Below are positions 10,794-44,793 of a stretch of 64,000 nucleotides of DNA, one piece after another. The DNA is from Agromyces mariniharenae (GTDB taxonomy: Bacteria > Actinomycetota > Actinomycetes > Actinomycetales > Microbacteriaceae). Below the pieces are notes generated by a model. That model was given only the letters and a program-made list of their open reading frames with translations. It ran no database searches and was not told where the DNA came from. Both the position numbers and the translations under genes were made by a program. Numbering within the stretch: position 1 is the first letter of the stretch; every line of letters begins with the position of its first letter. The stretch spans positions 248,001 through 312,000 of the forward strand of contig NZ_VSSB01000002.1 of the NCBI RefSeq assembly GCF_008122505.1, read 5' to 3'.

Positions 10794-11869
10794 GTGGCCC
10801 GTCGAAACCGTGAAGACCCCAACCAGCTCGCGTTCGACATTTGGAACCTCGACGACCTCCCCGAACCGGCACCGGCTGCGTCGCTCCCCCCAGCGGCGAA
10901 GCCGGTGCCATCCGCGCTGTTCGACCTCGGCGGCCGTGAATCGCCGCTCGCGACATCCGCCCGGGTGAACCTGCGCGCAGACGAACCCGCCGCCACTGCG
11001 GTCGACGGTTCGCACGCGCCGGAGCGTGGCCGGCCTGGGCGCGCTGAGCGTGGAGGCCAGGGCCGGCAGGGCAGCGCGCTGGCGTACCGTTCGAGTGCGG
11101 CCGAGCGTGTGCGGCGCGGCATCGACGCCGTCCGGGTCCTCAAGCTGCTCGAACGAGAGCAACGGCCAGCGACCAACGACGAGGCGGCGACTCTCCAGGC
11201 CTGGCCGGGATGGGGGGCGGTCCCGGAGCTGTTCAACGAGCGGTCCCGCCGGTTCACCGACGAGCGCGCGGAACTGCGCGAGCTGTGGACCAATGACGAG
11301 TGGCACGCGGCGGCGCGCACGACGATTAACGCGCACTACACCGACCCCGCGATCACCCGCCCGATATGGGACACCTTGACGGGGCTCGGGCTCATGAGCG
11401 GGACCGTGCTCGAGCCGGGCAGCGGGTCGGGCAACTTCCTCGGCCGCGCCCCCGAGCGGCTACGAATGGTCGGAATCGAACTCGACCCGACCTCGGCGGC
11501 GATCAGCCGCCACCTGCACCCCACCGCACAAGTGAGAACCGAATCGTTTGCGGACACGAAACTCGACCCGCACGGGCCCGACGCGGACGGGTTCGACGCG
11601 GTCATCGGCAACGTGCCGTTCGCCGACACGCGCCTGCACGACCGGTCTACAACCCGGACCGGTTCACCATGCACAACCACTTCATCGCGAAGTCCCTGCA
11701 GATGACCAAGCCAGGTGGCTTGATTGCGGTCCTCACCTCGAGGTGGACCATGGACGGCAAGGACTCCCGAGTGCGCAAACGGTTCGCCGAGCACGCCGAT
11801 CTCGTCGGTGCTGTCCGCTTGCCGAACGGCGCACATCGCGGCACAGCAGGAACCGACGTCGTCACCGAC
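10794..11869 (+). pseudogene. Truncated, frameshifted ICE DNA methylase/helicase
   Basis: This is the start (GTG 10794) of the large N6-adenine methylase/SNF2 helicase common in actinobacterial ICEs. Visible methylase motifs: AHYTDP, VLEPGSGSGNFL (AdoMet site), GIELDP and IGNVPFADT (catalytic motif IV variant). At 11643-11644 the frame changes; adding one C would read H-D-P-V-Y-N-P and continue into NPDRFTMHNHFI, TKPGGLIAVLTS and GTAGTDVVTD in the other frame. Similarity stops at about 11869, where the remaining part of the catalytic region and the whole helicase part (normally more than 1,000 residues) are missing. What follows is a recombinase remnant and the defence operon. Loss of function is very likely. 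Confidence 0.75.
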
Positions 11870-12115
11870 CCCTTGAGGAAGGCTTCCGCGCGCACTCAAT
11901 GCCAAACTATTCTTCACGATCATGGCGGCGCTCGCCGAGGCCAGGGTGGCTGGATCAGCTCGCGCACCCGCGAGGCATCGCGCGCGGCCGGCGGTGCGCC
12001 CAAGTTGCACGGCCGGCAGGCGTGTGGACCAGGTGCGCGGCGGCCTCTGTTCATCGGGCGATCCGGTCGCTGCGCTCGACGAAATCGGCTGCTCCGATTG
12101 GGCACGCCGACATGA
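11870..12115 (+). pseudogene. Decayed serine recombinase (resolvase/invertase) fragment
   Basis: Three reading frames carry consecutive pieces of the serine recombinase family signature. 11895-11939 reads LNAKLFFTIMAALAE (family: RLFFxIMAALAEFER). About 11950-11985 in another frame reads WISSRTREASRAAGG (family: LIxERTREGLxAA). A third frame near 12013-12050 reads ARPAGVWTRCAAASVHRAI (family: GRPAV linker and HTH). The N-terminal catalytic serine part is missing. The piece sits exactly between the cut methylase gene and the defence operon, so it probably marks the event that brought the cargo in. The assignment rests on motif order, not an alignment. Confidence 0.55.
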
Positions 12116-12170
12116 CTGGGCTCCCGAGCGCCGAGTTGAAATCTGACAGAGTGGTGTGCGGGAGGTTGCC

Positions 12171-15100
12171 TTGAGCAGGATCGTCGATAACGGCGTCGTG
12201 ACGCTGTCGGTCGCGCTCAATGATGTACTGCCGCACTCCGTGGCCTTCGACGCGTGCGTCGGGTACTTCAACCTCCGTGGCTGGCGTCTCCTGCGAGACG
12301 CGATCGGTCAGATGCAGCCGGGCGACGGCAGCCGTCCGCCGGTTAGGTTGCTCGTTGGCATGGCAATGTCAGCGGACGAGGCGCTGCGCCAAGCACTCGA
12401 AGGTGGAGCACCGGCAGTTGACCGGCCCGCGGCAGTGCGGCGCTCTGAACAGGCAGTCCTTGGATTCGCTCAGCAGCTTGTGTGGGGCGTGCCGACGAAG
12501 ACGGACGAGGCTGGCCTGCGGCAGCTGCGAATGGACCTGCAGGATGGCCTGCTTCAGGTGAAGTTTGCGGCACGTGAGCCGCTCCACGCCAAGCTCTATG
12601 TCGCCCACATTCCGTCCGGTCCGAACGGGTTCAGGCAGGCGGTGGTCGGTTCCTCCAACTTCACCTCCGCCGGCATGAGCAAGCATGGCGAACTGAGCCT
12701 CGAGGAGACCGACCAGCAGCTGACGGCGGAACTCGCTGACTGGTTCGACGCGCGCTGGGACGACCCGTTCTCCATCGATGTCACTGACGACCTCATCAAC
12801 GTCCTCGAAGAGTCCTGGGTTCGGGAAGAGCAGCCGAGCCCGTACCACGTCTACCTCCGCCTGGCATACGAATTGTCACGCGACGCCCGCGCCGGCCTCA
12901 CCCTCGATATCCCCACCGAAGTGCGCAAGGTGCTGCTCCCGCATCAGGAGAGTGCGGTGCGGGTTGCGACCCGCCTGATTGAGCGAAAGGGTATCGCCGT
13001 CATTGGCGATGTCGTTGGGCTCGGCAAGACACTGACCGGCACAGCTATCGCAGCCACGGTTGGAGAGAGCGTCCTGGTGATTGCTCCGAAGAACCTGACG
13101 AAGATGTGGCAAGAGCACCTGGACCGCTTTCACATCCCCGGTCGGGTGATCAGCCTGAGTATGGTTCGCCGCGAGCTCCCGGAGCTTAGGCGCTTTCGAC
13201 TGGTGCTGATCGATGAATCGCACAACCTCCGGAACCGCCAGCGCAAGGCGTGGAACGCGATCCGCAGTTACATCGACGAGAACGACTGCAAGGTCGTCCT
13301 CCTGACCGCGACAATGTTCAACGCGCGGCACAGCGACATCGGCGGCCAACTCGGGCTCAAGCTGCAGTCCGACGAGCCACTCGGCGTGCGCCCCGAGCAC
13401 CTCATCAGCGAAATCGGCGCCGTTGATGTCGCCCGTAAGACTGGCGGTCGGCTCGACACGCTGGCTGCATTCGAGCATTCGGAGCACAACGAGGACTGGC
13501 AGCGGCTTCTGAGCGAGTTTCTCGTTCGCCGCACCCGTAAGTTCCTTGAAACCACCTACGGCTCGACGGATCCTGTCTCCGGGGAGACGACGCTAGCTTT
13601 CCCCGACGGCACTCGGTTCCGCTTCCCTAAGCGCATCCCAGAGCCCCTCAAATATCCGGGCGGCCCGGCTGACCCCAATGACCGGCTCGCCACTGACGAG
13701 ACCTTCCAGGCCGTTACCGGCTTGACCTACGCGCGGTATCAGCTCGGCCTTTATCTCGATGACGCGATCATTGCCCGCGACAAGGATGAGGCGGAACTGA
13801 TTGAGGATCTGCGCACCGCGATCTCGGCTGCCGCGGGATTCATCCGCACGACGGCGCTCAAGCGGCTTACCTCTTCGGCACACGCTTTTATCCTGACGAT
13901 CAAGCGAATGATCGCGCGCAACGCTGTGCTCGACTACGCCATCACCAGCGATTTGGCCGTGCCGCTCGGCAACTTCTCGGAGCAGTACTTCGAGCTGGAC
14001 GACTACGACGGTGATGCGGATGAGGCGGACGGCGTCGACGATTCAGCCTCACCGTCGTGGGGAGTTGGTTGGACGGCGGATCAGTGGCTTGCCTATGCCC
14101 GCGGAGCGTACGAGCGGGTCGCCCAGAAACAGCCGAGGGGCATTCGGTGGGCGCGACCCTCCTTGTTCGAGTCGTCCAGGCTGCTGAATGACCTGCGCGA
14201 AGATTCGCGCACGCTGCAGGGGCTTCTTGACGACTACGGCGTGTGGGAGCCAGAGAACGACACCAAGTTGGATGCACTCGGCCGCCTGATTGATGCCCTC
14301 CCAATGGGCGAGAAGGTTCTGGTGTTTAGCGAGTACAAGGACACGGTGGATTATCTCGCCGAGCACTTGCCGCGATGGACGCAGCGCCGCTTCGCAGCGG
14401 CGAGCGGCGCATCCGGCGATCCCGTCCGGCTGGCACGCCGCTTTGCGCCTCTGGCCAACGCGCACCTCGGCGGGCTGCCCGAGGGGGAGTCCGAGCTTGA
14501 TGTCCTCCTTACCACAGACGTGCTCAGCGAGGGTCAGAACCTGCAGGACGCTGGAATCGTCGTCAACTGGGATCTGCCGTGGACCATCATCAAGGTCATC
14601 CAGCGCGCCGGCCGCGTCGACCGCGTCGGGCAGCAGGCGGATACCATCCGGGTCATGTCGTTCCTACCCCAGGCGGGGGTGGAGGGGGTGATTCAGCTGC
14701 GGGCTCGACTGTTGCAGCGGCTCAAGAACTCCGAACAGATCCTCGGCGGCGGCGAGCGTTTCTTCGATGACGACGACTTTACGACCGACCTGGCGGGGCT
14801 ATTCGACGGCACCGCCGATCTCGGCGAAGACGAAGGCGAAGTGGACTCGTCGAGCTACGCACTGCGCATCTGGGAAAGCGCCAACGACCGTGACCGGAGG
14901 ATCGCCCTCGATCTTCAGAAGGTCGTGTATTCGACCAAGCACTCGGACGCCGGGCGCGACGTCAGCGTCGTGACCTACGGTATTACCGACGCCGGCACCG
15001 ATTTGCTCGTGCGCTCGACCGCGCTCGACGTGGTATTCCTTACCCCGATGGAGGCGCTGGCCGCCTCCGAAAGCGAGCCGGGCGAAGCGCCGGCCGCGGT

Positions 15101-15512
15101 GCTGGGCACGCATCTCGAGCACGTCGAGCGCGCCGCCAGTGCCATGATCAAGCATGTGCGCCAGAACACCGTGCTGCTCAATCATGGGCTTCGAAAACGT
15201 CTCTATGACTTCCTAATGAAGCAGAGCGGTCGGATCGACCTGCCCGCGCTGACGCACGCTCAGATCGGACAGTTGGTCGAAGCCGTCACGTCCAACCCCC
15301 TTCGAGAGAGCGCCAAGAGCGAGGTGAACGCGATTCTGCGTTCCGTCCGTGTGCTCGGAGAGGATGGTGGACAGCTCGAACGCCTGCTCGCGCTGCATGA
15401 GGACCATCTATTGGTGGATGTCCGCGACCTTGGTGTCGACCGGGTGCAACTCGTGACGTCGGTGGGCTTCAATCCGTTGACGTCGGCAGATGGGGTGGAA
15501 TTACTTGCCTGA
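12171..15512 (+). CDS. PLD-nuclease / SNF2-type helicase of a four-gene defence operon
   Basis: TTG 12171 is chosen because GGAGG (12161-12165) precedes it by 5 bases; the GTG at 12156 would place this site inside the gene. The 1,113-aa product has an N-terminal phospholipase-D-like domain (H139-A-K-L-Y-V, then VVGSSNFTSAG) and a superfamily 2 helicase: HQ at the Q motif, GDVVGLGKT (Walker A, D280-T287), IDESH (D348), VLLTATMFN, VLVFSEYKDT, LLTTDVLSEGQNLQ and Q811-RAGRVDRVGQ (motif VI). The HxKxxxxD form of PLD is imperfect (His in place of Asp). It probably moves along and cuts foreign DNA. The gene overlaps the methylase by 23 bp. It is intact and without close ICE homologues around it. Confidence 0.85.
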   Translation: MSRIVDNGVVTLSVALNDVLPHSVAFDACVGYFNLRGWRLLRDAIGQMQPGDGSRPPVRLLVGMAMSADEALRQALEGGAPAVDRPAAVRRSEQAVLGFAQQLVWGVPTKTDEAGLRQLRMDLQDGLLQVKFAAREPLHAKLYVAHIPSGPNGFRQAVVGSSNFTSAGMSKHGELSLEETDQQLTAELADWFDARWDDPFSIDVTDDLINVLEESWVREEQPSPYHVYLRLAYELSRDARAGLTLDIPTEVRKVLLPHQESAVRVATRLIERKGIAVIGDVVGLGKTLTGTAIAATVGESVLVIAPKNLTKMWQEHLDRFHIPGRVISLSMVRRELPELRRFRLVLIDESHNLRNRQRKAWNAIRSYIDENDCKVVLLTATMFNARHSDIGGQLGLKLQSDEPLGVRPEHLISEIGAVDVARKTGGRLDTLAAFEHSEHNEDWQRLLSEFLVRRTRKFLETTYGSTDPVSGETTLAFPDGTRFRFPKRIPEPLKYPGGPADPNDRLATDETFQAVTGLTYARYQLGLYLDDAIIARDKDEAELIEDLRTAISAAAGFIRTTALKRLTSSAHAFILTIKRMIARNAVLDYAITSDLAVPLGNFSEQYFELDDYDGDADEADGVDDSASPSWGVGWTADQWLAYARGAYERVAQKQPRGIRWARPSLFESSRLLNDLREDSRTLQGLLDDYGVWEPENDTKLDALGRLIDALPMGEKVLVFSEYKDTVDYLAEHLPRWTQRRFAAASGASGDPVRLARRFAPLANAHLGGLPEGESELDVLLTTDVLSEGQNLQDAGIVVNWDLPWTIIKVIQRAGRVDRVGQQADTIRVMSFLPQAGVEGVIQLRARLLQRLKNSEQILGGGERFFDDDDFTTDLAGLFDGTADLGEDEGEVDSSSYALRIWESANDRDRRIALDLQKVVYSTKHSDAGRDVSVVTYGITDAGTDLLVRSTALDVVFLTPMEALAASESEPGEAPAAVLGTHLEHVERAASAMIKHVRQNTVLLNHGLRKRLYDFLMKQSGRIDLPALTHAQIGQLVEAVTSNPLRESAKSEVNAILRSVRVLGEDGGQLERLLALHEDHLLVDVRDLGVDRVQLVTSVGFNPLTSADGVELLA

Positions 15513-18500
15513 GGTAACGCGTGTGCGGGCGATCCTAAACGCCTTCGAACGGGGCGGGCTACGATCGGTCTTCGTTGATGAACTGGGATGGGAGAACCCC
15601 GGGGGCGCGAGCCCTACGACGGCCATAAACGTGGACGGCGAGGTGTTCGCGGCATCGATCGTCGCGACGCTCAAGGAGTTCCGCGTCTACTCGGTTGCCT
15701 GCGACGAAAAGCCGTCGCGGAGTTCGATGCGCCGGATCGATCACCAGCTAGCAGAACTCTCTCCGGAGCGTCTTGAAATATTCGAGTCCGCAGGGTCGTG
15801 GACTTGGCACTGGCCGCGCCGGACGAACGCGGGAACTACAACCTACGAAACCGTTGAGACGCTGCCGCGAACGCTCCCGACCTTTCTCGCCCAGCGGCTG
15901 ACGGGGCTTGAGTTCACCATCAACGAACTCAAGAAGGGCATAACGCTCGTCGACGTGCGTGACCGCGTCCAGGGCAACTTCGACGTCAGCGCCGTGACGA
16001 AGCGATTCTATGACCGCTTCGCGAAGGAGCAGGTCGCGCTGGCGAACGCCATTGAGGGCCTTCCCAGCAATCGACGGTTCGACTACTCGACGACGCTGCT
16101 CAACCGGCTGATGTTCCTTTACTTCTTGCAGAAGAAGGAGTTCCTCAACGGGGACGTCAACTACCTCGAGAACACGCTCCGGGCCGTGCGCGACATCAAG
16201 GGCAACGACCGCTACTACTCCTTCTACCGGGATGCCCTGCTGCCGTTGTTCTTTGACAAGTTGAACGATCGGGACGGCCACGTCGCCGACCCCGACATCC
16301 GACGCATCCTCGGCCATATCCCATACGTCAACGGCGGCATCTTCGGGCGGACTGACATCGAAGTCGAACACTCCGACACGCTGCTCGTGCCGGACACAGC
16401 GTTCGAGAAGATCTTTGAGTTCTTCGGCGCCTTCAGTTGGCATCTGGACACCCGCCCGACGCAGAACTCGGACGAAATCAACCCTGAGGTGATCGGCTAC
16501 ATTTTCGAGCAGTTCATCAACCTCGCGTCCTCGGGCAAGAAGGAAAACGGCGCCTACTACACGCCGCACGACGTCACGGCCTACATGGTGTCGCAGGCGC
16601 TGATCCCGCGCATCTTCGACGACTTCGAAGCGATCGAGGACGCTTTCTCCCTGCTCCGAGCGGACCCGGATCGGTATCTCCAGCCGACAATGCTCAAGGG
16701 CTGGGATGCCGACGTGGGCATGTGGCTGCCCATCCCGTCTGAACTCGAGGACGCCTGGGCGGCCGGCCCCAGCGAATGGTCGAGGCTGGACGCTGCCCCC
16801 GAGTCGAGCGATCTGAACCTGCCGGGGGAGACGTGGGTTGAGACGCTCCACCGGCGCGATCGCGTCGAGCTGATCCGGAGCCGCGCGGCGGAAGGCGGCC
16901 TGCGCAGTGTCAACGACCTCGTTACGTACAACCTGAATGGGCAGCTGCTCCTCACAGACGCCATCGATCGGATCAGCAACCCCCTGTCGGTAGTGCGATT
17001 GTTCCGCCGATTGTCGGAGCTGTCCGTCTTCGACCCGACCTGCGGTTCGGGCGCTTTCCTCTTCGCCGCGCTGGAAGTGCTCGAGGATATCTACGCCCAC
17101 ATTGTCGACATTGCGGCCGCGACCGGAGTCGCCTCGCAGCTCGGCGACTACGCAAGCCAGGCCGCGCGTCCGAGTGGCAAGCGTTACTTCATCCGGAAGC
17201 ACATCGCGATCACGAACCTCTACGGCACCGACCTGATGCCTGGGGCAATCGAGACGGCCAAACTCCGTATCTTCCTCGCCCTCGCCGCCTGCGTTGACTC
17301 GTACGACGACTTCAAGCCGCTGCCGGACCTTGACTTCAATCTGAAGGCCGGCAATCTCGTAGTCGGGTTGAAGGACGCCGCGGACGTTCACCGCGTCGGG
17401 AACGACCTCGTCGCGGAGGCCTACCTCCAGGGGTTCGACTCGCGCATCGACGAGCACGTCGATCTCTACAACCGGTTCCGCCATGCGGTTCAGTCGGACT
17501 CGCCAGAGCAGGAGGCGCTCAAGTCCGCCCTCCGCGAGAACGAGGAACTGCTTCGGCCGGACTGTGACCGAACGTACGCTCAGGTCGCGGGTATCCCCGA
17601 CGCCGACTTCGACGACTGGGTGGAATCGGCGAGGCCGTTCCATTGGTTCTGCGAGTTCCCGGAGATCATCCGGCGTGGCGGATTCGATGTTGTCGTCGGC
17701 AATCCGCCGTACGTCAAGCGAAGCGAGATCGAGGGGTACTCTGTCGCCGGCTACAAGACTTCGACCTGCGCCGATCTCTATGCGCCGTGCTACGAACGCA
17801 GCCTTTCGCTCACGCACCCGGACGGTCGCCACGCCTTCATCGTGATGGCCTCATTGACTGTTTGGGATGCCTTTGCGCCGCTTCGAGACGTCATCAGCGA
17901 GCGGGGCGGTGCGGAGTGGTGGAGCACTTACGGCAAGATCCCGGCGGCGCTTTTCCGGGGCGTGCGTGTCAGGAACACCATCGTGGTGCTCGGACCGGGC
18001 GAGGGTCGCTACGTCACGCGCCACCACATTCACACCGCCCGTCAGCGTAGCTGGCTGTTCCCCACGATCGAATACGCGGCGAGCACGCGAGACGGTGCCG
18101 ATTGGCCGGTGCGTGGCGGTGTCGCCACCAGCGTGCTTGAACGGCTTCGTGACCTCGCGGTGCCGACCCCACGGCGATCCGATGACGTGGTCTACCTCCG
18201 CCCGACCGCTTCGTACTGGTTCCCCGTTCTCCTTGGGCCGGCGCCAGTACTGGATTCAGACGGCAACGTTCTGGAGTCGGTGGACCGTCGCCTTCGCGTC
18301 GTGCCCCTAGGCGGCGATGAACAGGTGTCGGACGTCATCGCAACGCTCGGCGGGCGCCTGACCTACCTGTGGTGGACCGCGATCAGCGACGACTTCGATG
18401 TCTACGCTCGCGAGACGACCGCACCGCGGGCGCTCGCGCTCGCCGCGCGTGGCAGCGACGGCTGGGTAGACGCAGTGGCGGACGTGGAAGAAGCGGCTCG

Positions 18501-18732
18501 CACTGTTGCCTACGTCAGTCTCAATAAGCAGTGGTACTTCAACGTGCGCTGGAACAACGTTCGCCCGACCACGGACAAGCTTGACAGGATCGCGCTGCAG
18601 TCGTTGGGCGGGACCGAGGAGGACTGGCGGGCCCTTCATATCTTGTATCGCCAGGTAATGCGATCGTCGGGCGACAGCGCAAAGGGCCGCTACGTCACGA
18701 GCGATGAACTGGCATCGCTCCTCGGCTGGTAG
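15490..18732 (+). CDS. Eco57I-class N6-adenine DNA methyltransferase
   Basis: A 1,080-aa protein. ATG 15490 overlaps the helicase gene; TTG 15505, with GGTGG in front, is an alternative start. The AdoMet motif is D515-PTCGSGAF and the catalytic motif IV is GNPPYV with N738. FEQFINLASSGKKENGAYYTP is the conserved helical region that precedes the AdoMet motif in this class. Residues about 760-1,070 should hold the target recognition region. There is no PD-(D/E)XK nuclease at the N-terminus, so it modifies and does not cut by itself. It resembles PglX/BREX and type ISP methylases and likely marks host DNA so that the linked helicase and McrBC-like pair spare it. Confidence 0.85.
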   Translation: MGWNYLPEVTRVRAILNAFERGGLRSVFVDELGWENPGGASPTTAINVDGEVFAASIVATLKEFRVYSVACDEKPSRSSMRRIDHQLAELSPERLEIFESAGSWTWHWPRRTNAGTTTYETVETLPRTLPTFLAQRLTGLEFTINELKKGITLVDVRDRVQGNFDVSAVTKRFYDRFAKEQVALANAIEGLPSNRRFDYSTTLLNRLMFLYFLQKKEFLNGDVNYLENTLRAVRDIKGNDRYYSFYRDALLPLFFDKLNDRDGHVADPDIRRILGHIPYVNGGIFGRTDIEVEHSDTLLVPDTAFEKIFEFFGAFSWHLDTRPTQNSDEINPEVIGYIFEQFINLASSGKKENGAYYTPHDVTAYMVSQALIPRIFDDFEAIEDAFSLLRADPDRYLQPTMLKGWDADVGMWLPIPSELEDAWAAGPSEWSRLDAAPESSDLNLPGETWVETLHRRDRVELIRSRAAEGGLRSVNDLVTYNLNGQLLLTDAIDRISNPLSVVRLFRRLSELSVFDPTCGSGAFLFAALEVLEDIYAHIVDIAAATGVASQLGDYASQAARPSGKRYFIRKHIAITNLYGTDLMPGAIETAKLRIFLALAACVDSYDDFKPLPDLDFNLKAGNLVVGLKDAADVHRVGNDLVAEAYLQGFDSRIDEHVDLYNRFRHAVQSDSPEQEALKSALRENEELLRPDCDRTYAQVAGIPDADFDDWVESARPFHWFCEFPEIIRRGGFDVVVGNPPYVKRSEIEGYSVAGYKTSTCADLYAPCYERSLSLTHPDGRHAFIVMASLTVWDAFAPLRDVISERGGAEWWSTYGKIPAALFRGVRVRNTIVVLGPGEGRYVTRHHIHTARQRSWLFPTIEYAASTRDGADWPVRGGVATSVLERLRDLAVPTPRRSDDVVYLRPTASYWFPVLLGPAPVLDSDGNVLESVDRRLRVVPLGGDEQVSDVIATLGGRLTYLWWTAISDDFDVYARETTAPRALALAARGSDGWVDAVADVEEAARTVAYVSLNKQWYFNVRWNNVRPTTDKLDRIALQSLGGTEEDWRALHILYRQVMRSSGDSAKGRYVTSDELASLLGW

Positions 18733-18749
18733 GAGCGGAAGGGGCTCTA

Positions 18750-20393
18750 ATGGCGGAAGCAGTCGACGGCATGGGACGCACTGTCGATGAGGCGCTTGGC
18801 GCGCTCCAGATCTTCAAGAACGTCGTGCTCTTCGGGCCGCCCGGCACTGGCAAGACATACGCGCGGGATCGGATTGCGGCGGCGTGGTTAACGCACAGCG
18901 GCCGACACGTAGTCACGGCCGGGACCATGAAGGATAAGGACGGCAACGACCGCTCCTTTCCGTTCTCCGTCACGCTGCACCCCTCAACCACCTACGAAGA
19001 GTTCGTCGAGGGGCTACGGTACGACGATACGAAGGGCATCCAGCGATTCGTTCTGCAACCGGGGTTTGTTCGATTGGTGGTTGAGGCAGCACGCAGTGAC
19101 CCTGATCGCGACTACCTCATCCTCATTGATGAGCTGAACCGAGCGAACGTCCCAAAGGTCTTCGGCGATCTCCTGCTCACGGTTGAAGCCAGTAAGCGAG
19201 CCCAGTGGAACGGTACGGAGTGGGTCGATGGAACCCCAGTTACGCTGCCGTACTCGGGTCTATCGTTTGAGATGCCTAGCAATGTCTATCTGCTTGGCAC
19301 GATGAACTCCTCCGACCGCTCGATTGCACCGCTCGATGCGGCGCTTCGCCGCCGGTTCGCATTCGTCTCCGTCGAACCGCTGTCAGGCGATCAACTACTC
19401 GGAGCGCTCGCGTCGGAGTACGACGTCGACGAAGCAACAGCGGAAATGATCTGGAAGCCGTCCGTCGGAGCGCTCGACACGATCAACGACGTGCTGACGA
19501 AGTGCCTTGGGCCGGATTCGCGACTTGGGCATAGTTACCTCTTCGTCGATCCGTCGAGTCTGGAGGCCGAACTGGAGACCGGCGCGTTAGGTGAAGTCTT
19601 CTGGATGACGACGGCCGGGCGGATGGATACCGGCTCCCAACTCCAGTTTCCGGCGACGGTCTGGAGCAATGCGTTTCTTCCTGGCGTCGGCTTCGCCGAC
19701 CCGATGCAAGTCCCCACCGCTCAGGGGTCCGCCGGCGAAGTCGTCACGCGGTTCCGCGGGCGAACGTACACGCCGGCGATCACGCGCAACTCGGCGAACA
19801 ACACGATCCGTCTCTCAAAGAATGGCGAGGGCGAGTCGGCGCTGCCGATGGCCGAGCTGACGGGCCACATTGCGCTGTTTCGTCCGATTAGCGGGACTGA
19901 TAGAACGATGGAACTCGTCGTCGTCCCGCTCAGTCGCGCGGACGCGCTTTGGAGGGCGTCGCGGCCCGGTCAGCGCCCGAAAGAGGGCGAGGCCCGGACA
20001 TGGGGCGTCATCCCTGCTCAGCCCAAGCAGCGCGACCGCCTGTGGTGGGTGTGGCGCTACGCGATCCTTCCGCAGCTGATCGAGACGGTGACACAGGCCT
20101 ACGCCGCCGGCCTCCTGGTGGCGGGCACTCGACGAGCCGAGTGGCTGACCGAGGCAAGCTTCGAGCAGGCGGCGCGCGCCAAGCTGGAGGCGGCGCTGGC
20201 GCAGTTCGATGCATTCCTCGCCCAGAGTCTCGGCCTGACTATCGTCGAGGAAGGGCGCGGGATGACGCGCGGTCTTGCCGTCATTGAGGCGGCGCCTGGC
20301 CCGGAGGCGGCACACGCCGGGCCTAAGGAGACCGGCGGCGGCGACAAAGCGCAGACTGAGGAGCCCGTCGAAGCGCCGGCGGCGGAAACGTAG
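18750..20393 (+). CDS. McrB-like AAA+ ATPase
   Basis: A 547-aa protein 17 bp behind the methylase. Walker A is G29-PPGTGKT, Walker B is LILIDELNRAN (D127-E128), the sensor is GTMNSSDRS (from residue 185; MNTADRS in McrB) and the arginine finger region is LRRRF. VTLHPSTTYEEFVEGLR also fits the McrB GTPase/ATPase subfamily. The N-terminal DNA-binding domain of classical McrB is absent (the AAA domain starts at residue 20), so target choice must come from another subunit. The C-terminal 120 residues are acidic and Ala-rich. The McrC-like partner follows 5 bases later. Confidence 0.85.
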   Translation: MAEAVDGMGRTVDEALGALQIFKNVVLFGPPGTGKTYARDRIAAAWLTHSGRHVVTAGTMKDKDGNDRSFPFSVTLHPSTTYEEFVEGLRYDDTKGIQRFVLQPGFVRLVVEAARSDPDRDYLILIDELNRANVPKVFGDLLLTVEASKRAQWNGTEWVDGTPVTLPYSGLSFEMPSNVYLLGTMNSSDRSIAPLDAALRRRFAFVSVEPLSGDQLLGALASEYDVDEATAEMIWKPSVGALDTINDVLTKCLGPDSRLGHSYLFVDPSSLEAELETGALGEVFWMTTAGRMDTGSQLQFPATVWSNAFLPGVGFADPMQVPTAQGSAGEVVTRFRGRTYTPAITRNSANNTIRLSKNGEGESALPMAELTGHIALFRPISGTDRTMELVVVPLSRADALWRASRPGQRPKEGEARTWGVIPAQPKQRDRLWWVWRYAILPQLIETVTQAYAAGLLVAGTRRAEWLTEASFEQAARAKLEAALAQFDAFLAQSLGLTIVEEGRGMTRGLAVIEAAPGPEAAHAGPKETGGGDKAQTEEPVEAPAAET

Positions 20394-20398
20394 ACAGT

Positions 20399-21889
20399 AT
20401 GGCTGACCTCGCGTCGATCGCACTGAGGGCGAGCCCTGATGGCTCCACCGCGGGGTTTACAGTGCTGAGCGACGGCAGCGAGACGGGCGCGGTAGCCGTC
20501 GTTGTCCTCCCTAAGCCCTGGTCTTCCGCTCCAGGCCGCGCGCGATCTGTTGCGCACCAGCCCGGGACGACGACCCATGTCGTCCTGTATGAGCTCGATG
20601 TCGCCGAGATCGCGACTGAGCGGAGCGCTGCTCAGGCCATCGCGCTCTCTGTGACTTCTCTGCCAGCCGAGCTTGGCGATGACGACGACGGTCGTGGACG
20701 TCGACTACTTGAGGCGGTGGCGCCTTCGGGCGCGGCGATCCCTGAGGCGACGCCCGATGACTTGTATGAAGCGCTATTACGTCTCCTCCTCATCATCGAG
20801 CGGTCGCGTGTCCTCCGCGGGCACCGCTCAATGCGGGGCCGGTACTCCCGATCGCTCCTTCGGTTGATGGAGCAGCTCCGGATGGTTGGCGAGCTCGAGC
20901 GGGTCATCTACCTCGCGCGCCCCCGCTATGAGGAGCGCCACGAGGAGCTCACCATTCCTCGAGGCCGCCTGGTGGAGGGGGCACTTCTGCGCTCCGAGTG
21001 GTCAGGGGTTCCTCGAGTCGAGTCGGTGTTCGATGAGTTGACGACCAACACGCCGGTGTTGCAGATCGCTGCGGCCGCGCTTCGAGTGACCGTTGCGGAT
21101 CAGCACGACCTGCGACTGCGCGCAGTCGCGACGGGGTTACGCGATCGTGCGGCCCGGTTACTCCAGCTGCTGTCGGGGGTGACCGTACTCGATCCTCCGA
21201 GTGCCATGCTCCTCGCCGAGCGCTCTTACTTCGGGCGCCTGGATGAACAATGGAAGCCGGCCATCGCGGCAGCCATGCCGGTCCTCCGCGGGCACGGGGT
21301 GGCGCCGACGGAGGGGCGCGACGAAGCCCAGCGCGCTCCAGTTCTGAGCCTGCCTATGGAGCAGGCGTGGGAGGAGTGGCTGGAGCGCGGTTTGCGGATT
21401 CTCTGGACGGACGTTCGCCCTCAAGCGACGACGCGCGGGCCGTGGGCGCTCGATCCGGCTCGTCCGCCGCAGACCGGCCGGATTGACTTCCTCGTCCGGC
21501 TGCCGGACGGCCGCGTGGCTGCAGTCGACGCGAAGTACAAGATCGACCTGGGGTACATCCGCTCAGGCGACGGCTACCAGCTGTTCGCGTACAGCCACCT
21601 CGCGCAGATGGACGACGATTCGCCGTCCCTCGCGGTGCTCCTCTACCCTGAGGCGGCCAGTACGGGACAAGACATTAGTCGCCGGTACTCGCGGGTTCCC
21701 GGCGAGTCCTTTCCGCTATGGACCGCGGAGCTCCCCTTTCCGTCGGCGTCGGAGCTTCGAGAAAGAGAAGCATTCGCCGACTACCTGATGCGCTTGGTCG
21801 GAGCGCTCAGCGTCATTTCGGCCGAGTGGGCGACAGAGCCGGCGCGTTCCGAAAACTTGCCCGCTGAGGCTCATTCCGCGCCTGCTTGA
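20399..21889 (+). CDS. McrC-like PD-(D/E)XK nuclease subunit
   Basis: A 496-aa protein, ATG 20399. The C-terminal third holds the McrC nuclease core: G-R-I-D363-F-L ... A-V-D377-A-K379-Y-K, then GDGYQLFAYSHL, as in the endonuclease subunit of McrBC. The N-terminal part (1-300) is helical and would contact the McrB-like ring. Together with the previous gene it forms a nucleotide-driven DNA cutter. It ends the operon; a 281-bp gap follows before the coupling protein. Confidence 0.8.
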   Translation: MADLASIALRASPDGSTAGFTVLSDGSETGAVAVVVLPKPWSSAPGRARSVAHQPGTTTHVVLYELDVAEIATERSAAQAIALSVTSLPAELGDDDDGRGRRLLEAVAPSGAAIPEATPDDLYEALLRLLLIIERSRVLRGHRSMRGRYSRSLLRLMEQLRMVGELERVIYLARPRYEERHEELTIPRGRLVEGALLRSEWSGVPRVESVFDELTTNTPVLQIAAAALRVTVADQHDLRLRAVATGLRDRAARLLQLLSGVTVLDPPSAMLLAERSYFGRLDEQWKPAIAAAMPVLRGHGVAPTEGRDEAQRAPVLSLPMEQAWEEWLERGLRILWTDVRPQATTRGPWALDPARPPQTGRIDFLVRLPDGRVAAVDAKYKIDLGYIRSGDGYQLFAYSHLAQMDDDSPSLAVLLYPEAASTGQDISRRYSRVPGESFPLWTAELPFPSASELREREAFADYLMRLVGALSVISAEWATEPARSENLPAEAHSAPA

Positions 21890-22170: not shown

Positions 22171-23955
22171 ATGCGTTCACCGGATGCTTGGCGCGCAAAT
22201 ATGGCACTGGCTGGTGTCGGCGTCGTGGCTGCGCTGATCATCGCGCAGGCCGGAACAGCTTGGGCGCTCGCTGTGGCGACTTCGAAACCAGTCGCCCACC
22301 TGTCGATCTGGCAGTTGCTCGGCTTGTACGCGCAACCCGATCCGACCATCGTGACAGGGCAGCCCGTCCCGGGGGCCGTGCACTGGGGACTGGTGGCGCT
22401 TGCCGTCGCTCTGATGCTGCTGCCAGTAGTGCTGTGGCTGCGGCAGCGCCGAGGTTCGGGCCTTGGGGAAACACTGCGGAAGGGTACTGCAAGCAAGGCA
22501 GAGCTGAAGAGGCACGCCGGCGGCCCCCAGCTGGTCAGGCGTGCAACCACCCTTCGACCGTCGATCGACAAGAAGACGGCGAAGCCAGAAGAGGTCGGAT
22601 ACTGCATCGGGGCGGCGCACGGCCTGCCGATCTGGATGAGCGTGGAGGACTCAGCGATCCTTATCGGCCCGTCCCGATCGGGCAAAGGCTTCAACTTTGT
22701 CGTCCCCATGCTGACAAAGGCGATGGGCGCAGTCGTGACGACCTCCACCCGCGCGGACAACCTGCTCCTCACGATGGAGCACCGCAAGCGCGCCGGAGGG
22801 CCGATGTTCGTGTTCGACCCTGCAGGGGTCGCGGCCGGCGCCGGAAACGAACTGCGTTGGTCACCACTGGAAGGCGCCAATGATCTTGACATCGCAATGC
22901 GTCGTCTCGCGTCGCTGATCCCAAGCGACGGATTCGATGGCGTCCAGAACACCGGTTATTGGGAGGCGACGTCGAAGAAGATCATCCTCGCTTTGTTCCA
23001 CGCGGCCGCGCTCGACGAGCGCACAATTGATGACTTCTGGCGGTGGATGAGTGATCCGAACCTCGCGAAGACTGAAGCGTTGGAGATCTTGAACTCGCAT
23101 CCCGACTCCGACCGTGCCACGGCACGTTCCCTTAACGCGGTCCTCACCGGAAGCCCCGAGCAGCGCGGCAATGACTGGGCGGCAGCGTACGCCGACGTCG
23201 CGTACATGGCTTCCCCGAAGGTGCGCGCATCGATGTCGCCGACCGCGGAGGATGCGGGGTTCGACCCGTTCGAGTTCATCATGTCGCGCGGCACCCTGTA
23301 TCTGATCGGTGATGCAGCATCCGCGGCCGCGTTCGAGCCGTTGATCGTCGCACTCGTTGAAGAGATCTCCGCGGTCGCCCAAGGCATCGCGGGCGCGTCG
23401 CCGGACGCGCGCCTCGACCCGCCCGTGCAGTTCATCCTCGACGAGGCCGCGAACTTCAGAATCCCGACCCTGCCGAAGCTGATCAGCTACAGTGGCGGCT
23501 CCGGGTTGACCGTGATCGTCGTGCTGCAGTCGATCTCGCAGGCTGAGATGGCGTGGGGTCGCGATGGAGCGCGCGCCTTGTGGGGTGCCGCGAGCCTGAA
23601 GATCGTCCTGCCCGGGGGTTCCGACCCGTCCGATCTGAAAGATCTCGAAACGCTTGTCGGCGAGGTGGAGCTCGAGCGGCGCACATTCTCGACGTCCGAG
23701 AGCGGCGTCTCGTACCAGCACGCTCGCGAGGAGAAGCGAGTTCTTCGAGCCAGCGAGATCAGGACCCTCGCATTCGGGACCGCGCTGGTGTTCTTCCGAC
23801 AGCTCAAGCCAGCGATCGTGAAACTCACCCCGTGGATCGCGCTCCCGATCGCCGAACAGTTGAAGACCGACCGCGACATGGTCGCCGCCCGACTCTCCGC
23901 GGCGAGCCCATACGCGGCGCGCCTGCGGCGGTGGAACGAGCGGAACCCGGGATGA
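22171..23955 (+). CDS. VirD4/TraG-type IV coupling protein
   Basis: A 594-aa protein with two N-terminal membrane helices (residues about 9-33 and 66-90), then a RecA-like ATPase: Walker A G166-PSRSGKG and Walker B FILDEAANF with D424-E425. Other family segments are FVFDPAG, GYWEATSKK and VVLQSISQAE. It links the relaxase-DNA complex to the secretion channel. The start ATG follows AAGGGAG. In related ICEs it directly follows the large methylase/helicase gene, which explains the present order once the defence cargo is removed. The stop overlaps the HNH gene (ATGA). Confidence 0.85.
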   Translation: MRSPDAWRANMALAGVGVVAALIIAQAGTAWALAVATSKPVAHLSIWQLLGLYAQPDPTIVTGQPVPGAVHWGLVALAVALMLLPVVLWLRQRRGSGLGETLRKGTASKAELKRHAGGPQLVRRATTLRPSIDKKTAKPEEVGYCIGAAHGLPIWMSVEDSAILIGPSRSGKGFNFVVPMLTKAMGAVVTTSTRADNLLLTMEHRKRAGGPMFVFDPAGVAAGAGNELRWSPLEGANDLDIAMRRLASLIPSDGFDGVQNTGYWEATSKKIILALFHAAALDERTIDDFWRWMSDPNLAKTEALEILNSHPDSDRATARSLNAVLTGSPEQRGNDWAAAYADVAYMASPKVRASMSPTAEDAGFDPFEFIMSRGTLYLIGDAASAAAFEPLIVALVEEISAVAQGIAGASPDARLDPPVQFILDEAANFRIPTLPKLISYSGGSGLTVIVVLQSISQAEMAWGRDGARALWGAASLKIVLPGGSDPSDLKDLETLVGEVELERRTFSTSESGVSYQHAREEKRVLRASEIRTLAFGTALVFFRQLKPAIVKLTPWIALPIAEQLKTDRDMVAARLSAASPYAARLRRWNERNPG

Positions 23956-29657: not shown

Positions 29658-30533
29658 TCATCTGGACAGAGGATCGATGAGGCGCTGGTTACGCCGACTC
29701 AATCGCGGCTCGACACTCACGACACCTCGGCCGTCGACGAGATGCCAATACCCGGCCATCGCGCGACCCCACAGGTCGACTGTCTGCCAGTCGCCCGTGA
29801 AGAAGTCGTATCCGAGCACCTGCGAGTGTGAGGGATACAGCAGCGCCCGCTCGACGTAGATCAGTCGCATGTCCCCACTTCGGGCGAGCTCGAGCATCAT
29901 GGCCCACCGCTTCCTCGCCCACAGCCCGATCAACCGAATCATGAGCTCACCGCCTGCGAGCACGGCGAGGCCCATGAGCAGTGCGCCGTAGAACACGAGC
30001 AGTCCGACAGTGCCGAGGTCCGCGGAGCGGACCGCCAGCGGGGCCATGCCCATCGCCGCCACCAAGAGCGCCGCGAAGGACCGGCGTGGGAAGCTCCGCC
30101 GCGGGAGATACGCGAGCACGGCCGCGACCACCAGGCCGACGAGCACCAGCTGCAGCGATAACATCTGCGACACGGCAGCGGGCTCGGCTGCGGCGGGAAG
30201 GCGACTGGCCGCCGAAGACAGCATGGCCAAGGCGACCATCAGCACGACCGCCGGAACGATGATCGCCGCAACAACGACGATCCAGTCCGGAAGGCGGTGG
30301 TGCTCGCGCGCCCTCTCAAGCTGGGCGTTGTACGCGGCACGACGTACCGGGTCGGTGAGGACTTCGCCGGCGGTCACGACGCGCGCATGGTCCCGGGTGG
30401 TGCGGCGGCTGCCGACCAAGTCAGGGTGCGTGGCGAACGCGCGCTCGGTGAGCGCCGCCTCCACCGCCTCGGCGGAGGCGTCAGGGGTGATCCCGAGCGT
30501 CTTGTAGTGGTCGTTATGCCGCATGGCCCTCAC
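29658..30533 (-). CDS. J-domain membrane protein coupled to the relaxase
   Basis: GTG 30533 overlaps the relaxase stop (GTGA), which fixes the start. The 291-aa product begins with a DnaJ-like J domain (HYKTLGITPDASAEAVEAAL; HPD at about residue 37; DPVRRAAYNAQLE), followed by about five membrane helices between residues 80 and 210 and a C-terminal cytoplasmic domain. It may recruit DnaK to the membrane during relaxase loading or unfolding, but this is inferred from the J domain and the genetic coupling. Confidence 0.7.
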   Translation of the reverse strand: MRAMRHNDHYKTLGITPDASAEAVEAALTERAFATHPDLVGSRRTTRDHARVVTAGEVLTDPVRRAAYNAQLERAREHHRLPDWIVVVAAIIVPAVVLMVALAMLSSAASRLPAAAEPAAVSQMLSLQLVLVGLVVAAVLAYLPRRSFPRRSFAALLVAAMGMAPLAVRSADLGTVGLLVFYGALLMGLAVLAGGELMIRLIGLWARKRWAMMLELARSGDMRLIYVERALLYPSHSQVLGYDFFTGDWQTVDLWGRAMAGYWHLVDGRGVVSVEPRLSRRNQRLIDPLSR

Positions 30534-33500
30534 GGTAGACGGATCCGCTGACGTGTCGTCTCTTCGGCGGGGATCTGTGGGCGACGCGACCCGTCGTCCG
30601 AGCGCGGCCGACTGACGGTCGGGGGAGCTGCCTCGACGTGGGAGAGCGCCGTGTGAGCGATCTCGTAGTCGGTGCGCCGCTGATGGTTTAGGTCATCGAT
30701 GGGGCCGAGCGGCGTCGACGAAGTGACGCCCCACTTGTCGCGGTAGGCGGCGATCGTCACCGCGTGTTCGCGCCAGTCGTCTCCGCTTGGCACGCCGAGT
30801 CTCGAGGTCCACGGTTCACGTGTGGCGATCGCGTTGTCGAGTACGCGTTCGGCGCGTTCGTGGATGGCGGTCGCTCGCTCGTCGAGCGCACGCTGCATGT
30901 CCGCGTTGTCGCTGCGGATCACGGGAATGAGGCCGGCGATGCGTTCGCGCCTCGTGCGGGGAGCGTTCGCCGATGCGAGGGCGAGACGATCGGTGAGCCG
31001 CTGATGGATGACTGCGGCCGCGTCGTCGGCGGTGTCGAGTCGACGAGGGTGGACGGCTTCGGAGATGAGCTCAGCGACCGGGAGTTGCTGTTCGTCGACG
31101 CGACGCAGCAGCGCCACGAGCGCGTCGTAGCCGCCATGGCTGCGAAGCTGCGCGTGCTGTTCCTCCCCGAGCGACGCGTTCAGCACAGCGCCGTATCGTT
31201 CGGCGGCGATGTGCGCGGCCAGTGTGTCGTACTCGGCCGCGAGCTGCCGGATGCTTGACACTCGCTCGTACTCGCCTCGAGCCGTTGCGGTGGCGGACGT
31301 ATCCGCGCCGGCCGAACGGAGCACCGACTCGAGCACGTCGCGCCATCCACGCTCGAGCTGTCGGCTCGTGTCCGAGTCGGAGACGCCCACCGTCACGTAT
31401 GCCTTGTTCGAGTGCTTGCCGCGGGTGAGGCCGACGTACGCGACCTCGCGTGTCGTGCTCTCGTCGACGAGCATGTGCGCGGTGTCCACCGTTCGTCCTT
31501 GCGATCGGTGTGCCGTGGTGGCGTATGCGAGTTGCACGTGCTCCCTGAGGTACGCGACGGGAAGGGTCACACGTGCGCCATCCGCGTTCTCAACGACGGC
31601 TTCACCGTTGCGGCGTAGCCTGACGACGATCCACTCCTGACCGTTGCGGACCCACTCACCGTGCGAGTCGCGGAGGGTCCGGTTGTTGTTCCGGGTGACG
31701 AGCCTGTCGCCGAGGTGTGCGCGCATCTGCTCACTGATCGCGGCGGACTCGTCGCTGAGCCAGCCGGCTTTCCTCAGCCATTTCTGGGCGTGGAGATTCA
31801 GCGTGCGGACCTGGGCGTTGTCCGATGCGATCAGCAGCGAATCGAGACCCGCTGCGACATCCGCTTGCCATGCGGCGAGAGCGTCAGCGAGCATTTCGTC
31901 GCTGGTGCCCGACTCGATGCGGTCGTGCGCTGCGTACGTGTCGATCGCGCCGACGTCCCCCAGTCGCAGCAGCACCGAGGCATCCCGCTCCCACTCGGCC
32001 GCGAATCGCCACACCTGGTCGAGCTGTGCGGCGCGATCGCCGCGCTCGGCGACGATGAGCGAGAACGCGCCACCCGCGTCGACGGCGCCGAGCTGTGCCC
32101 AGTCGCCGACGAGCAGGAGTTTCGCCCCTGCGGCCGCGGCCTGCGCGCGGAGTTCGTCAAGGGCGAGGGTGCCGCTCATGCCGGCCTCGTCGACGATGAC
32201 GAGCTGCCCCGGGCGCATGGCGAACCGGGGTCGATCGCCGGTCGATCCTGTGATCCACATCGCGGTGTTCTCGGTCTCGATGCCGAGCGCGTCGCCGAGG
32301 ACGCGAGCGGCCGCGGCCGACGGAGCCAGTCCGATCACCGAGTGCTGCCCGTACTCGTGCTCCCACAGCTCGCGCAGCTTCGCGAGGGTCGTCGTCTTGC
32401 CCGCCCCTGCCGGGCCGACGAGCACGTCGACGGCGAGTCCCGACGTGGCAATGCGAGCGACTGCGTCGCGCTGGTCGTCAGCGAGCATCCGACCCTCACT
32501 GTCGGCGGTGTCGAGCCTGATCGCGATCGCGTCCGCTGTGACGCGGAGGTCGCTGGCCTGATGGGATGCCGCGACGAGGCGACGTTCAGCATCCAGCAGC
32601 GCGCGCGTGGTGAACAGCTCCCGCGCGGTCGGCGCGAACGCGCTGGCGCCATCCGATTGCCGGAACTCTCGTGGCGCGTGCAGCGGGTTTCGAGGCGTCA
32701 GCGCCACCGCGGCCGCGACGACCTGTTCGAGCACGCGACACGACGCGTCAGCGCGGTCGAGGATGCTGCGGAACGTCACCGGCTTGAGCGCACGATGCAC
32801 CTCCGCCATCGCGTTGGCTCGAGTCCACGTCGCTCGGGACCCGGTCAGCGCGGCGAGCACGCGGCCGGCGATCTCACCCACATCGACGATGTCGGAAAGG
32901 TCATCGCCGTGCAGCGACCACTGCGAGTGAGACGACAAGCGTCGATGTCCGGCCTCCACGACGCGTCCGACGAGCCGGTCGGGGTCGGTGATGCGTGCGG
33001 CCCGGTCTCGCCACCACGCCGACAGCTCCTCGAGCGAGCGCACGGTCTTGGATGCGCGGGTGCGCCGAGTCGCCGCCTGCCGCATCCTCCAGACTTGGAA
33101 CCGCGACGGCTCCTTGCCCGTCGCCGCGCGGTACTCCTCGATCAACTCGTCCTTAGCCCGTGCGATCTGCGTCGACCGTTGCGAGAACTCGTCGAGCAGC
33201 GATGACGGGATACCGTCGATCTCCCACTTCCGATTCCGTGCGGCGACGCCGAGCTCGTCTGCGAACAGCGCGCGGCTCTCCTGCGAGTCGTTGAGGTCGC
33301 GCTCCCTCAGGAACCGGGCGTACCGCTCTGGGTAACGCTCCACCGACCGCTCGGTCCACTGGACGCCCAGTCGGTTCGACAGCGCATCCATGAGCGCCGC
33401 GTCGTAGGTCTCGGACAGCGTGACGACGTGAGGCGACAAGGCATGCCGCGAGTCGATGGTGCGCCACTGTCCGTCGGTCGTCTGGACGCGATTCGAGATC

Positions 33501-34144
33501 AGCAGGTGGGTATGCAGCTGCGGGTCGCCCTCTCGCGAATCCCAGTGGTCGAATCCTGTCGCGACCGCGCCAAGCACCTCGAGTTGAACGACGCCGCCAG
33601 TGCCGGCTCGGGTGCGCAGCGCGTCGCGTTCGAGGATCGCGAGGGTCTCCTGCAATGCCTGCTCGTGGACGGCCTTGATCTGCTCCTGCACTGATGCGGG
33701 CGACAGCGCCCAGAGCACGCTGACCGACTTCGGCGGGTTGAACACCAGCTCGAACCCGGCGACGGATGACGGCGGGGTGTGCGCGGTCTCCTCGGCGATG
33801 ATCTTCGCCACAACGTGCTCGCGCGTCGCGTCGTCCAGCGACGTGTCGAGCTGCTTCACGCGCGCGTCGATCCGTTCCTCGAGTGTCGCGACGACAACGT
33901 ACCTCCGCGCCAACGGCTCACCCGTCAACGGGTGAGCGCCAGCACCATAGAGATGCGACAGCTCGGCAGGCGTCACGGTTCGCCCCTCGGCGACCCCAAG
34001 ACCGGCGACACCGGCGCCGTACCAGCGGCCGGCCGGTGTGCCCTCGGCGGCGTAGTAGTCGACAGCGTCACCGCGACCCGCCTCGGCCGCGACAGAGTCC
34101 TGGAAGTACCGCCACGCGTCCTCGCCCGACGCGATCTTCACCAT
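30530..34144 (-). CDS. MobF-family relaxase with RecD-like helicase (TraA type)
   Basis: The ATG at 34144 (MVKIASGEDAW) is the expected MobF start; the longer frame upstream overlaps the zinc-finger gene. The 1,204-aa protein has candidate nicking tyrosines Y30/Y31, FNPPKSVSVLWAL, the metal-binding triad region HWDSREGDPQLHTHLL (H211, H213), then an SF1 helicase: Walker A G577-PAGAGKTTT, VIVDEAGM, GDWAQLGAV, YATTAHRSQGRTVD and YVGLTRG. It cuts the transferred strand at oriT, stays attached, and unwinds the duplex. It is encoded opposite to the secretion genes. Confidence 0.9.
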   Translation of the reverse strand: MVKIASGEDAWRYFQDSVAAEAGRGDAVDYYAAEGTPAGRWYGAGVAGLGVAEGRTVTPAELSHLYGAGAHPLTGEPLARRYVVVATLEERIDARVKQLDTSLDDATREHVVAKIIAEETAHTPPSSVAGFELVFNPPKSVSVLWALSPASVQEQIKAVHEQALQETLAILERDALRTRAGTGGVVQLEVLGAVATGFDHWDSREGDPQLHTHLLISNRVQTTDGQWRTIDSRHALSPHVVTLSETYDAALMDALSNRLGVQWTERSVERYPERYARFLRERDLNDSQESRALFADELGVAARNRKWEIDGIPSSLLDEFSQRSTQIARAKDELIEEYRAATGKEPSRFQVWRMRQAATRRTRASKTVRSLEELSAWWRDRAARITDPDRLVGRVVEAGHRRLSSHSQWSLHGDDLSDIVDVGEIAGRVLAALTGSRATWTRANAMAEVHRALKPVTFRSILDRADASCRVLEQVVAAAVALTPRNPLHAPREFRQSDGASAFAPTARELFTTRALLDAERRLVAASHQASDLRVTADAIAIRLDTADSEGRMLADDQRDAVARIATSGLAVDVLVGPAGAGKTTTLAKLRELWEHEYGQHSVIGLAPSAAAARVLGDALGIETENTAMWITGSTGDRPRFAMRPGQLVIVDEAGMSGTLALDELRAQAAAAGAKLLLVGDWAQLGAVDAGGAFSLIVAERGDRAAQLDQVWRFAAEWERDASVLLRLGDVGAIDTYAAHDRIESGTSDEMLADALAAWQADVAAGLDSLLIASDNAQVRTLNLHAQKWLRKAGWLSDESAAISEQMRAHLGDRLVTRNNNRTLRDSHGEWVRNGQEWIVVRLRRNGEAVVENADGARVTLPVAYLREHVQLAYATTAHRSQGRTVDTAHMLVDESTTREVAYVGLTRGKHSNKAYVTVGVSDSDTSRQLERGWRDVLESVLRSAGADTSATATARGEYERVSSIRQLAAEYDTLAAHIAAERYGAVLNASLGEEQHAQLRSHGGYDALVALLRRVDEQQLPVAELISEAVHPRRLDTADDAAAVIHQRLTDRLALASANAPRTRRERIAGLIPVIRSDNADMQRALDERATAIHERAERVLDNAIATREPWTSRLGVPSGDDWREHAVTIAAYRDKWGVTSSTPLGPIDDLNHQRRTDYEIAHTALSHVEAAPPTVSRPRSDDGSRRPQIPAEETTRQRIRLP

Positions 34145-34149
34145 CGAGA

Positions 34150-34608
34150 TCACGACGTCGCCGCCCGACGCGCCCGGAACGCCGCGACACGACATCGCGT
34201 GGAGCAGTACTGCTGACCTGCTCGGGCGGCCGACATGTCGGCCCGACACGACGCGTTCGCGCAGGTCGTCCGTCGCGGCGCCGCGACACGAGCCGCGTAG
34301 TGCCACGCGCGCTTGCGACATGACGCCGAGCAGAACCGCTGACGCGACAGCGACGACACGAACCAGTCGAGGCAGCTGTCGCAGCGTCGCGTCAGCACGG
34401 ACGTCGCAGCGTCGCATTCCTGACGCGACACACGGCGACGAGCTGCGTCACGACACGCCTGCGAGCAGAACGACGTGTGCTGAGTGCCGGCGACGAACCG
34501 ACGACGACATTCGCGACACCACGACGCGAACCGTCGATGCCCGATGCGCTGCGGCGCGTGAGCCGCGTCGCCGAGCATCGTCATCGCCCGCGACAGCTGA
34601 CGCGTCAT
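34150..34608 (-). CDS. Triple zinc-ribbon protein upstream of the relaxase
   Basis: A 152-aa basic protein ending 5 bases before the relaxase start. It consists of three tandem modules of the form C-x2-C (or C-x3-C) - about 12 - F/Y-C-S-x2-C: CRECRR...FCSQAC, CDSCLD...FCSASC and CANASC...YCSTRC. Each could bind one zinc ion, and the array looks made for repeated DNA contacts. The DNA of this gene and its edges carries eight GCGACA/TGTCGC hexamers. It may be an oriT or relaxase accessory factor; I know no named family. Confidence 0.6.
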   Translation of the reverse strand: MTRQLSRAMTMLGDAAHAPQRIGHRRFASWCRECRRRFVAGTQHTSFCSQACRDAARRRVSRQECDAATSVLTRRCDSCLDWFVSSLSRQRFCSASCRKRAWHYAARVAAPRRTTCANASCRADMSAARAGQQYCSTRCRVAAFRARRAATS

Positions 34609-44753: not shown

Positions 44754-44793
44754 AACCCAGAGGTCGTAGGTTCAAATCCTGCCCCCGCAACCA
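44754..44793. repeat. att half-site: 3' end of initiator tRNA-fMet gene
   Basis: The 40 bases from AACCCAG to CCA carry the anticodon-stem 3' half (CCCAG), variable loop AGGTC, T-arm GTAGG-TTCAAAT-CCTGC, acceptor CCCCGCA and ACCA. The A at the end of the acceptor arm would face C1 of an initiator tRNA, which distinguishes it from elongator tRNAs. The 5' half of the tRNA is missing here (GGAACCCAG, not ATAACCCAG), so this is the duplicate left by integration; a complete gene should sit at the other ICE end, outside the window. Confidence 0.85.

Follow-up and report, generated by a model that had tools for sequence, protein, structure and literature searches.

A recurrent four-gene operon with a predicted B3-like domain in the lid of its McrB-like protein, carried by an integrative and conjugative element of Agromyces mariniharenae

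Four adjacent genes and their conserved motifs

We studied a four-gene operon in a 64,000-nucleotide stretch of Agromyces mariniharenae DNA (contig NZ_VSSB01000002.1, positions 248,001 to 312,000), which we call the window. The four open reading frames (ORFs) lie on one strand: gene A (12156-15512, +) encodes a protein of 1118 amino acids (aa) in which an N-terminal PLD domain is fused to an SNF2-type helicase, gene B (15490-18732, +) an Eco57I-class DNA methylase of 1080 aa, gene C (18750-20393, +) an McrB-like AAA+ protein of 547 aa, and gene D (20399-21889, +) an McrC-like protein of 496 aa with PD-(D/E)XK residues. As listed, the ORFs of A and B overlap by 23 nucleotides (nt), and gaps of 17 and 5 nt separate B from C and C from D. 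An initial annotation had described four adjacent genes with short gaps or overlaps, and both the ORF coordinates and the domain scans agree with it; its domain calls also held up in the Pfam and PADLOC matches and in the catalytic residues kept. It began gene A at 12171, an in-frame TTG at residue 6 that is a possible start and at which the similarity to the Salinibacterium homolog begins.

In protein A, Helicase_C exceeded its Pfam cut-off, PLDc_2 (26.7 vs 27 bits) and SNF2-rel_dom (21.3 vs 24.9) fell slightly under theirs, and RE_NgoFVII was also under its own (18.7 vs 23.8 bits); the top PADLOC model was 'HKD+Snf2'. Residues H144, K146, G165, S166, N168 and E179 (HxK, GSxN, E) are kept in 13 of 13 aligned rows, as are helicase motifs I, II (DESH) and VI. 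Protein B, which is matched by Eco57I in Pfam and by PADLOC models, has the motifs DPTCGSGAF (515-523) and NPPY (738-741) invariant across 24 aligned rows, and from its class we would expect it to methylate adenines. Its top PADLOC model (490 bits) describes a type IIG restriction enzyme-methyltransferase, as would be expected if B itself were a restriction-methylase of that type and the remaining genes its accessories. However, residues 1-130 of B hold no invariant D/E/K triad across the 24 aligned rows, nor even a nearly invariant lysine; the invariant positions there are W34, W106, W108, P109, G115 and P130, and those nearly so are E93, R94 and E120. We regard this explanation as very improbable.

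Walker B and the NxxD motif of C are invariant across 26 rows, and Walker A is nearly invariant. In D, which matches McrBC (PF10117), the triad D363, D377 and K379 is invariant across 24 aligned rows.

A predicted B3-like domain in gene C and known systems

The initial annotation had taken C for an McrB-like protein without a DNA reader, which might be recruited by the methylase or the helicase. There is indeed no reader at the N-terminus, where the AAA_5 match already starts at residue 24, but the predicted structure and its structure matches place a B3-like domain within the AAA+ lid, at residues 276-430 (19575-20039, +). The model of this insert had a pLDDT of 91.8 and a pTM of 0.86, and the insert is the most variable part of C, the C-terminal tail excepted. 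Judging from the model, C seems to carry a DNA reader inside its motor, and because of this the mechanism of recruitment proposed at first has to be revised. The protein database assigns PF28529 to C and to many of its relatives; our local Pfam scan of C did not report this family.

LlaJI comprises two 5-methylcytosine (5mC, or m5C) methylases and two restriction subunits, of which R1 is McrB-like and determines the specificity and R2 is McrC-like; it restricts unmethylated DNA (PMC1459862), and the R1 of the Helicobacter LlaJI reads DNA via an N-terminal B3 domain (PMC7680126). Like LlaJI as described there, the operon combines a methylase with an McrB-like subunit that has a B3-type reader (in the operon a predicted fold) and an McrC-like PD-(D/E)XK subunit. 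Unlike LlaJI, it has one Eco57I-class methylase, its B3-like domain lies inside the AAA+ lid rather than at the N-terminus, it includes an additional PLD-helicase gene, and its cleavage is only predicted. Because of the one Eco57I-class methylase in place of two 5mC methylases, we do not file the operon as a LlaJI member and only liken its probable working to that of LlaJI.

The operon had also been called type IV-like. The McrB GTPase-like C and the McrC-like D that this implies are present, but the likeness fits less well than that to LlaJI, and C is without the N-terminal reader that precedes the GTPase in type IV McrBC. In a corresponding explanation, A-B would restrict unmodified DNA and C-D would be a type IV enzyme with a B3 domain that recognises a modified, foreign base, the two forming complementary layers against modified and normal phages. 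In line with this, C is related to McrB and has the NxxD motif, and D is related to McrC and has all three residues of the nuclease triad; BREX and a type IV enzyme have been described as complementing each other (PMC8565348). However, the relatives of C-D keep company with methylases. Moreover, among the B3 domains that match the insert, those of LlaJI.R1, BfiI, UbaLAI and EcoRII read sequence and are not known to need a foreign base. We judge a type IV role of C-D improbable.

The A-B part recalls CglI and NgoAVII, in which a PLD-B3 nuclease R, a superfamily 2 (SF2) ATPase N and a C5 methylase are encoded together (PMC4267653): a PLD HxK nuclease, an SF2 ATPase and a methylase are found in one gene set in both cases. 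In CglI and NgoAVII, however, R and N are separate and the methylase is a C5 enzyme, whereas in the operon PLD and helicase form one protein and the methylase is of Eco57I class. The CoCoNuT census linked some McrBC branches to predicted methylases and others to a DISARM-like cassette, and took inserts in the GTPase domain as likely to encode specificity domains (PMC11090510). McrBC beside methylases is already published. The DISARM-like cassette includes a YprA helicase (PMC12458937), which is absent from the operon. The available text of the census, figures apart, names neither a B3 domain nor this gene set, and literature searches over openly available text turned up no such quartet and no McrB protein with a B3 domain in its lid.

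Hma, DISARM and BREX resemble the operon in that a helicase and a methylase are adjacent; their defining partners differ. The DrmA/DrmB pair that defines DISARM was not found among the four genes, A resembling DrmA in its helicase part only (PADLOC, E 1.5e-11, residues 717-834), and neither PglZ nor BrxC, which stand beside PglX in BREX, occurred among the matches listed for the four genes (the best 25 PADLOC rows for A and for B; Pfam). A kinship with Hma, a set of helicase, m5C methylase (HmaB) and DUF499 ATPase (HmaC) (PMC8565338, PMC12839542), had been suggested for the operon and was not confirmed, C being an AAA_5/McrB protein and B of Eco57I class. There was no HmaC in the three PADLOC rows of C, no DUF499 in Pfam and no HmaB in the best 25 of the 55 PADLOC rows for B.

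Recurrence of the quartet and its mobile setting

The four-gene set is real; it recurs, though rarely. A Salinibacterium locus (L002) has the identical gene order, with identities of 85% for A, 77% for B, 60% for C and 51% for D and gaps of 15 and 5 nt. A comparison over five loci, which covers B, C and D only, was made by joining proteins through shared contig size (16,995; 16,834; 642,618, Agrococcus); Salinibacterium and Agrococcus both belong to the Microbacteriaceae. The identities of B, C and D agree over these loci (r 0.90 for B-C and B-D and 0.998 for C-D, in ten comparisons that are not independent) and divide them into two subclades, a division that three further contigs joining B and C alone also fit. 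The divergence of C and D outpaces that of B and, in the comparison of the window with L002, also that of A. The lists of protein relatives held 120 of 149, of 2530 and of 965 entries. The initial annotation had read the four genes as a single unit that joins a methylase to two possible nucleases, a reading in line with the operon-like layout, the order kept in another genus and the joint divergence of B, C and D. Genes for a NERD-domain protein (L002:13513-14523) and a large RNase H/AAA protein (17622-21212) are found close to the quartet of Salinibacterium, and no conjugation genes were recognised adjoining it.

A profile of B was positive in 3 of 398 genomes of the family (its own, G1008 and G041), in 1 of 327 of the order (its own) and in 3 of 296 of the phylum (its own, G792 and G798). 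With a profile of D, for which 3 to 10 candidates were scored per genome, the positive genomes, own included, were 3 of 150 in the family, 17 of 396 in the order and 10 of 396 in the phylum; the hits other than its own gene reached at most 39.6 bits, against 655 for the latter, and look like ordinary McrC. An alignment search of genome contigs with D returned five loci, a distant McrC (L006) among them, the plasmid survey with D gave a single weak match, and no relative of D or B was found among the candidate stretches of viral contigs.

We examined 13 loci with A beside a DNA methylase, which were chosen by similarity to A or B, so that the fractions given here are no census. L042 is the same as L002 and was counted once; outside the count stand L046 (G792, where a piece of B precedes A) and L047 (G798, at a contig end), and the plasmid records examined were 4 of the 148 matching B and 6 of the 25 matching A. 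Both C and D are present in two of the 13, the window and L002. They were not matched in the fetched stretches (10.7-18.9 kb; E <= 1e-3, or E <= 1e-4 for L038-L041 and L043) of the other 11, which come from Synechocystis, Picosynechococcus, Anabaena, Pelobacter, Rhodococcus (two), Pseudarthrobacter, Paenarthrobacter, Gordonia, Microbacterium and the same-family genome G041. In tblastn searches (1e-3), the methylase resembled B over a long part in L038-L041, L043 and L053; for the Rhodococcus methylases next to A (L048:10270-13017, L049:10474-13017) the match was confined to B residues 9-170; and the gene after A matched B weakly in L051 and L052 (23-30%) and not at all in L050. That gene is annotated as a DNA methyltransferase in all five of L048-L052. 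Since the match to B ranges from long to none, A pairs with various methylases, and because the Rhodococcus enzymes match only residues 9-170, the N-terminal part of B may be an adaptor or docking piece for A. In L041 and L051, insertion sequences lie beside a methylase gene that is truncated or split. In the Paenarthrobacter plasmid, the A-methylase pair follows closely behind a coupling-protein gene, recalling the place of the operon in the window.

These loci bear on another explanation, in which two independent systems occupy one slot: an A-methylase pair and a C-D nuclease with its own target, co-transcribed and sharing no site. The pair not only occurs without C-D in most of the loci but has other neighbours elsewhere, namely an SLFN/AlbA_2 protein in Gordonia (L052:13032-14309), an AAA_21 protein with DUF4276 in Anabaena (L053:7503-9301) and, between A and B in cyanobacteria (L038 and L039; L038:7308-7941), a VapC-containing pair. 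The relatives of C-D accompany other methylases: with 38-42% identity they stand behind two genes in two Arthrobacter loci (L003, L004) and one of Curtobacterium (L005), and in Arthrobacter (L003:4593-8329, L004:4415-8295) both of these genes encode methylases, one PglXI/DUF1156-like and one N6_Mtase, a layout like that of LlaJI but with methylases of non-5mC type. On the other hand, B is the sole methylase of the four genes, and without a methylase to protect it the host would be attacked by a LlaJI-like nuclease; the tight gaps and the in-step divergence across two subclades also argue against two stacked systems, which we consider unlikely though not far-fetched. The initial annotation had named co-occurrence of parts only as what would speak against a single system; the parts do occur singly and the whole quartet recurs too, so that this came true by half.

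The operon is carried by an integrative and conjugative element (ICE), as had been proposed: a tyrosine integrase (43654-44637, -), a TrwC-type relaxase-helicase (30530-34417, -) and a TraG/VirD4-type coupling protein (22171-23955, +) are encoded between two copies of a 40-bp repeat with 48.8 kb between them. The right copy (44754-44793) adjoins the tyrosine integrase gene, and the left copy, outside the window (contig C2:243950-243989), forms the end of a tRNA-Met. The G+C content is 64-67% inside the ICE vs 72% in the chromosome to its right. Directly upstream of the operon lies a broken plasmid/ICE helicase gene with its first 303 codons open (10794-11705, +); its residues 100-283 are similar to plasmid helicases, and two of the latter that were examined have lengths of 1617 and 1726 aa, judging from their coordinates. 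By eye, the reading continues in another frame (region 10794-12115, +), for which a Pfam scan, the only search made, gave no match. The operon may have entered the ICE at this gene. A second defence-like cargo of the same ICE is a SIR2-domain protein (35901-37574, -) whose top PADLOC model is PDC-S25, a candidate defence family (425 bits), with weaker similarity to ThsA and Dsr1.

Proposed mechanism and its meaning

On balance we favour, with moderate confidence, a hybrid nucleotide-driven restriction-modification system in which one methylase mark serves two effectors and C reads the site of B. In such a system, B would mark adenines at a site in the host genome. The first arm would be protein A, whose PLD nuclease is joined to an SNF2-type translocase and which with the methylase would form a core working like CglI/NgoAVII. 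In the second arm, modelled on what is proposed for LlaJI R1/R2, the lid B3 domain of C would read a short unmethylated sequence, the McrB-type ring would translocate and D would cut. The site read by C would be the one protected by B, so that one methylase would license two chemically different nucleases. We infer a role in phage defence, in which both arms would act jointly on DNA that is unmarked at the shared site. More tentative is the specific proposal that the mark of B gates both the ATP-driven PLD nuclease A and the C-D ring whose lid B3 domain reads the same unmethylated site.

Several points weigh against this mechanism. LlaJI has two methylases, which it needs because its site is asymmetric, whereas the operon has one, and the protection of both strands or of daughter duplexes is left unexplained. 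If B marks one strand, every replication would give one unmarked duplex; one solution would be that two translocating complexes have to meet, as for McrBC and for type III and ISP enzymes. The B3 assignment depends on predicted structure, Foldseek gave no match to the insert at E <= 0.001 (the best being 1.2e-3), and LlaJI.R1 was tied with other B3 rows among the structure matches. Moreover, the insert is ~45% identical between subclades, whereas the C-terminal 200 residues of B are 70-83% conserved (six quartet-type rows); a conserved C-terminus of B beside a fast-changing insert in C therefore argues rather against tight co-variation of two readers. Outside the window and L002, the linkage of the genes depends on matching contig sizes. 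Finally, A has a methylase but no C-D in 11 of the 13 loci, and is therefore independent of C-D.

If the proposed mechanism is true, any phage would need to overcome two unlike motors and two unlike nucleases that rely on a common self-mark, and restriction effectors would be exchangeable plug-ins behind a methylase, since relatives of the McrB-C pair follow two methylases in Arthrobacter and a PLD-helicase/methylase core in the operon studied. The operon would then be a concrete case of the inserted 'specificity domains' of the McrBC census and would show how McrBC-type enzymes can read plain sequence rather than a modified base. With a reader in the lid of the AAA+ ring instead of on an N-terminal tether, how the reading of a site starts the motor would become testable.
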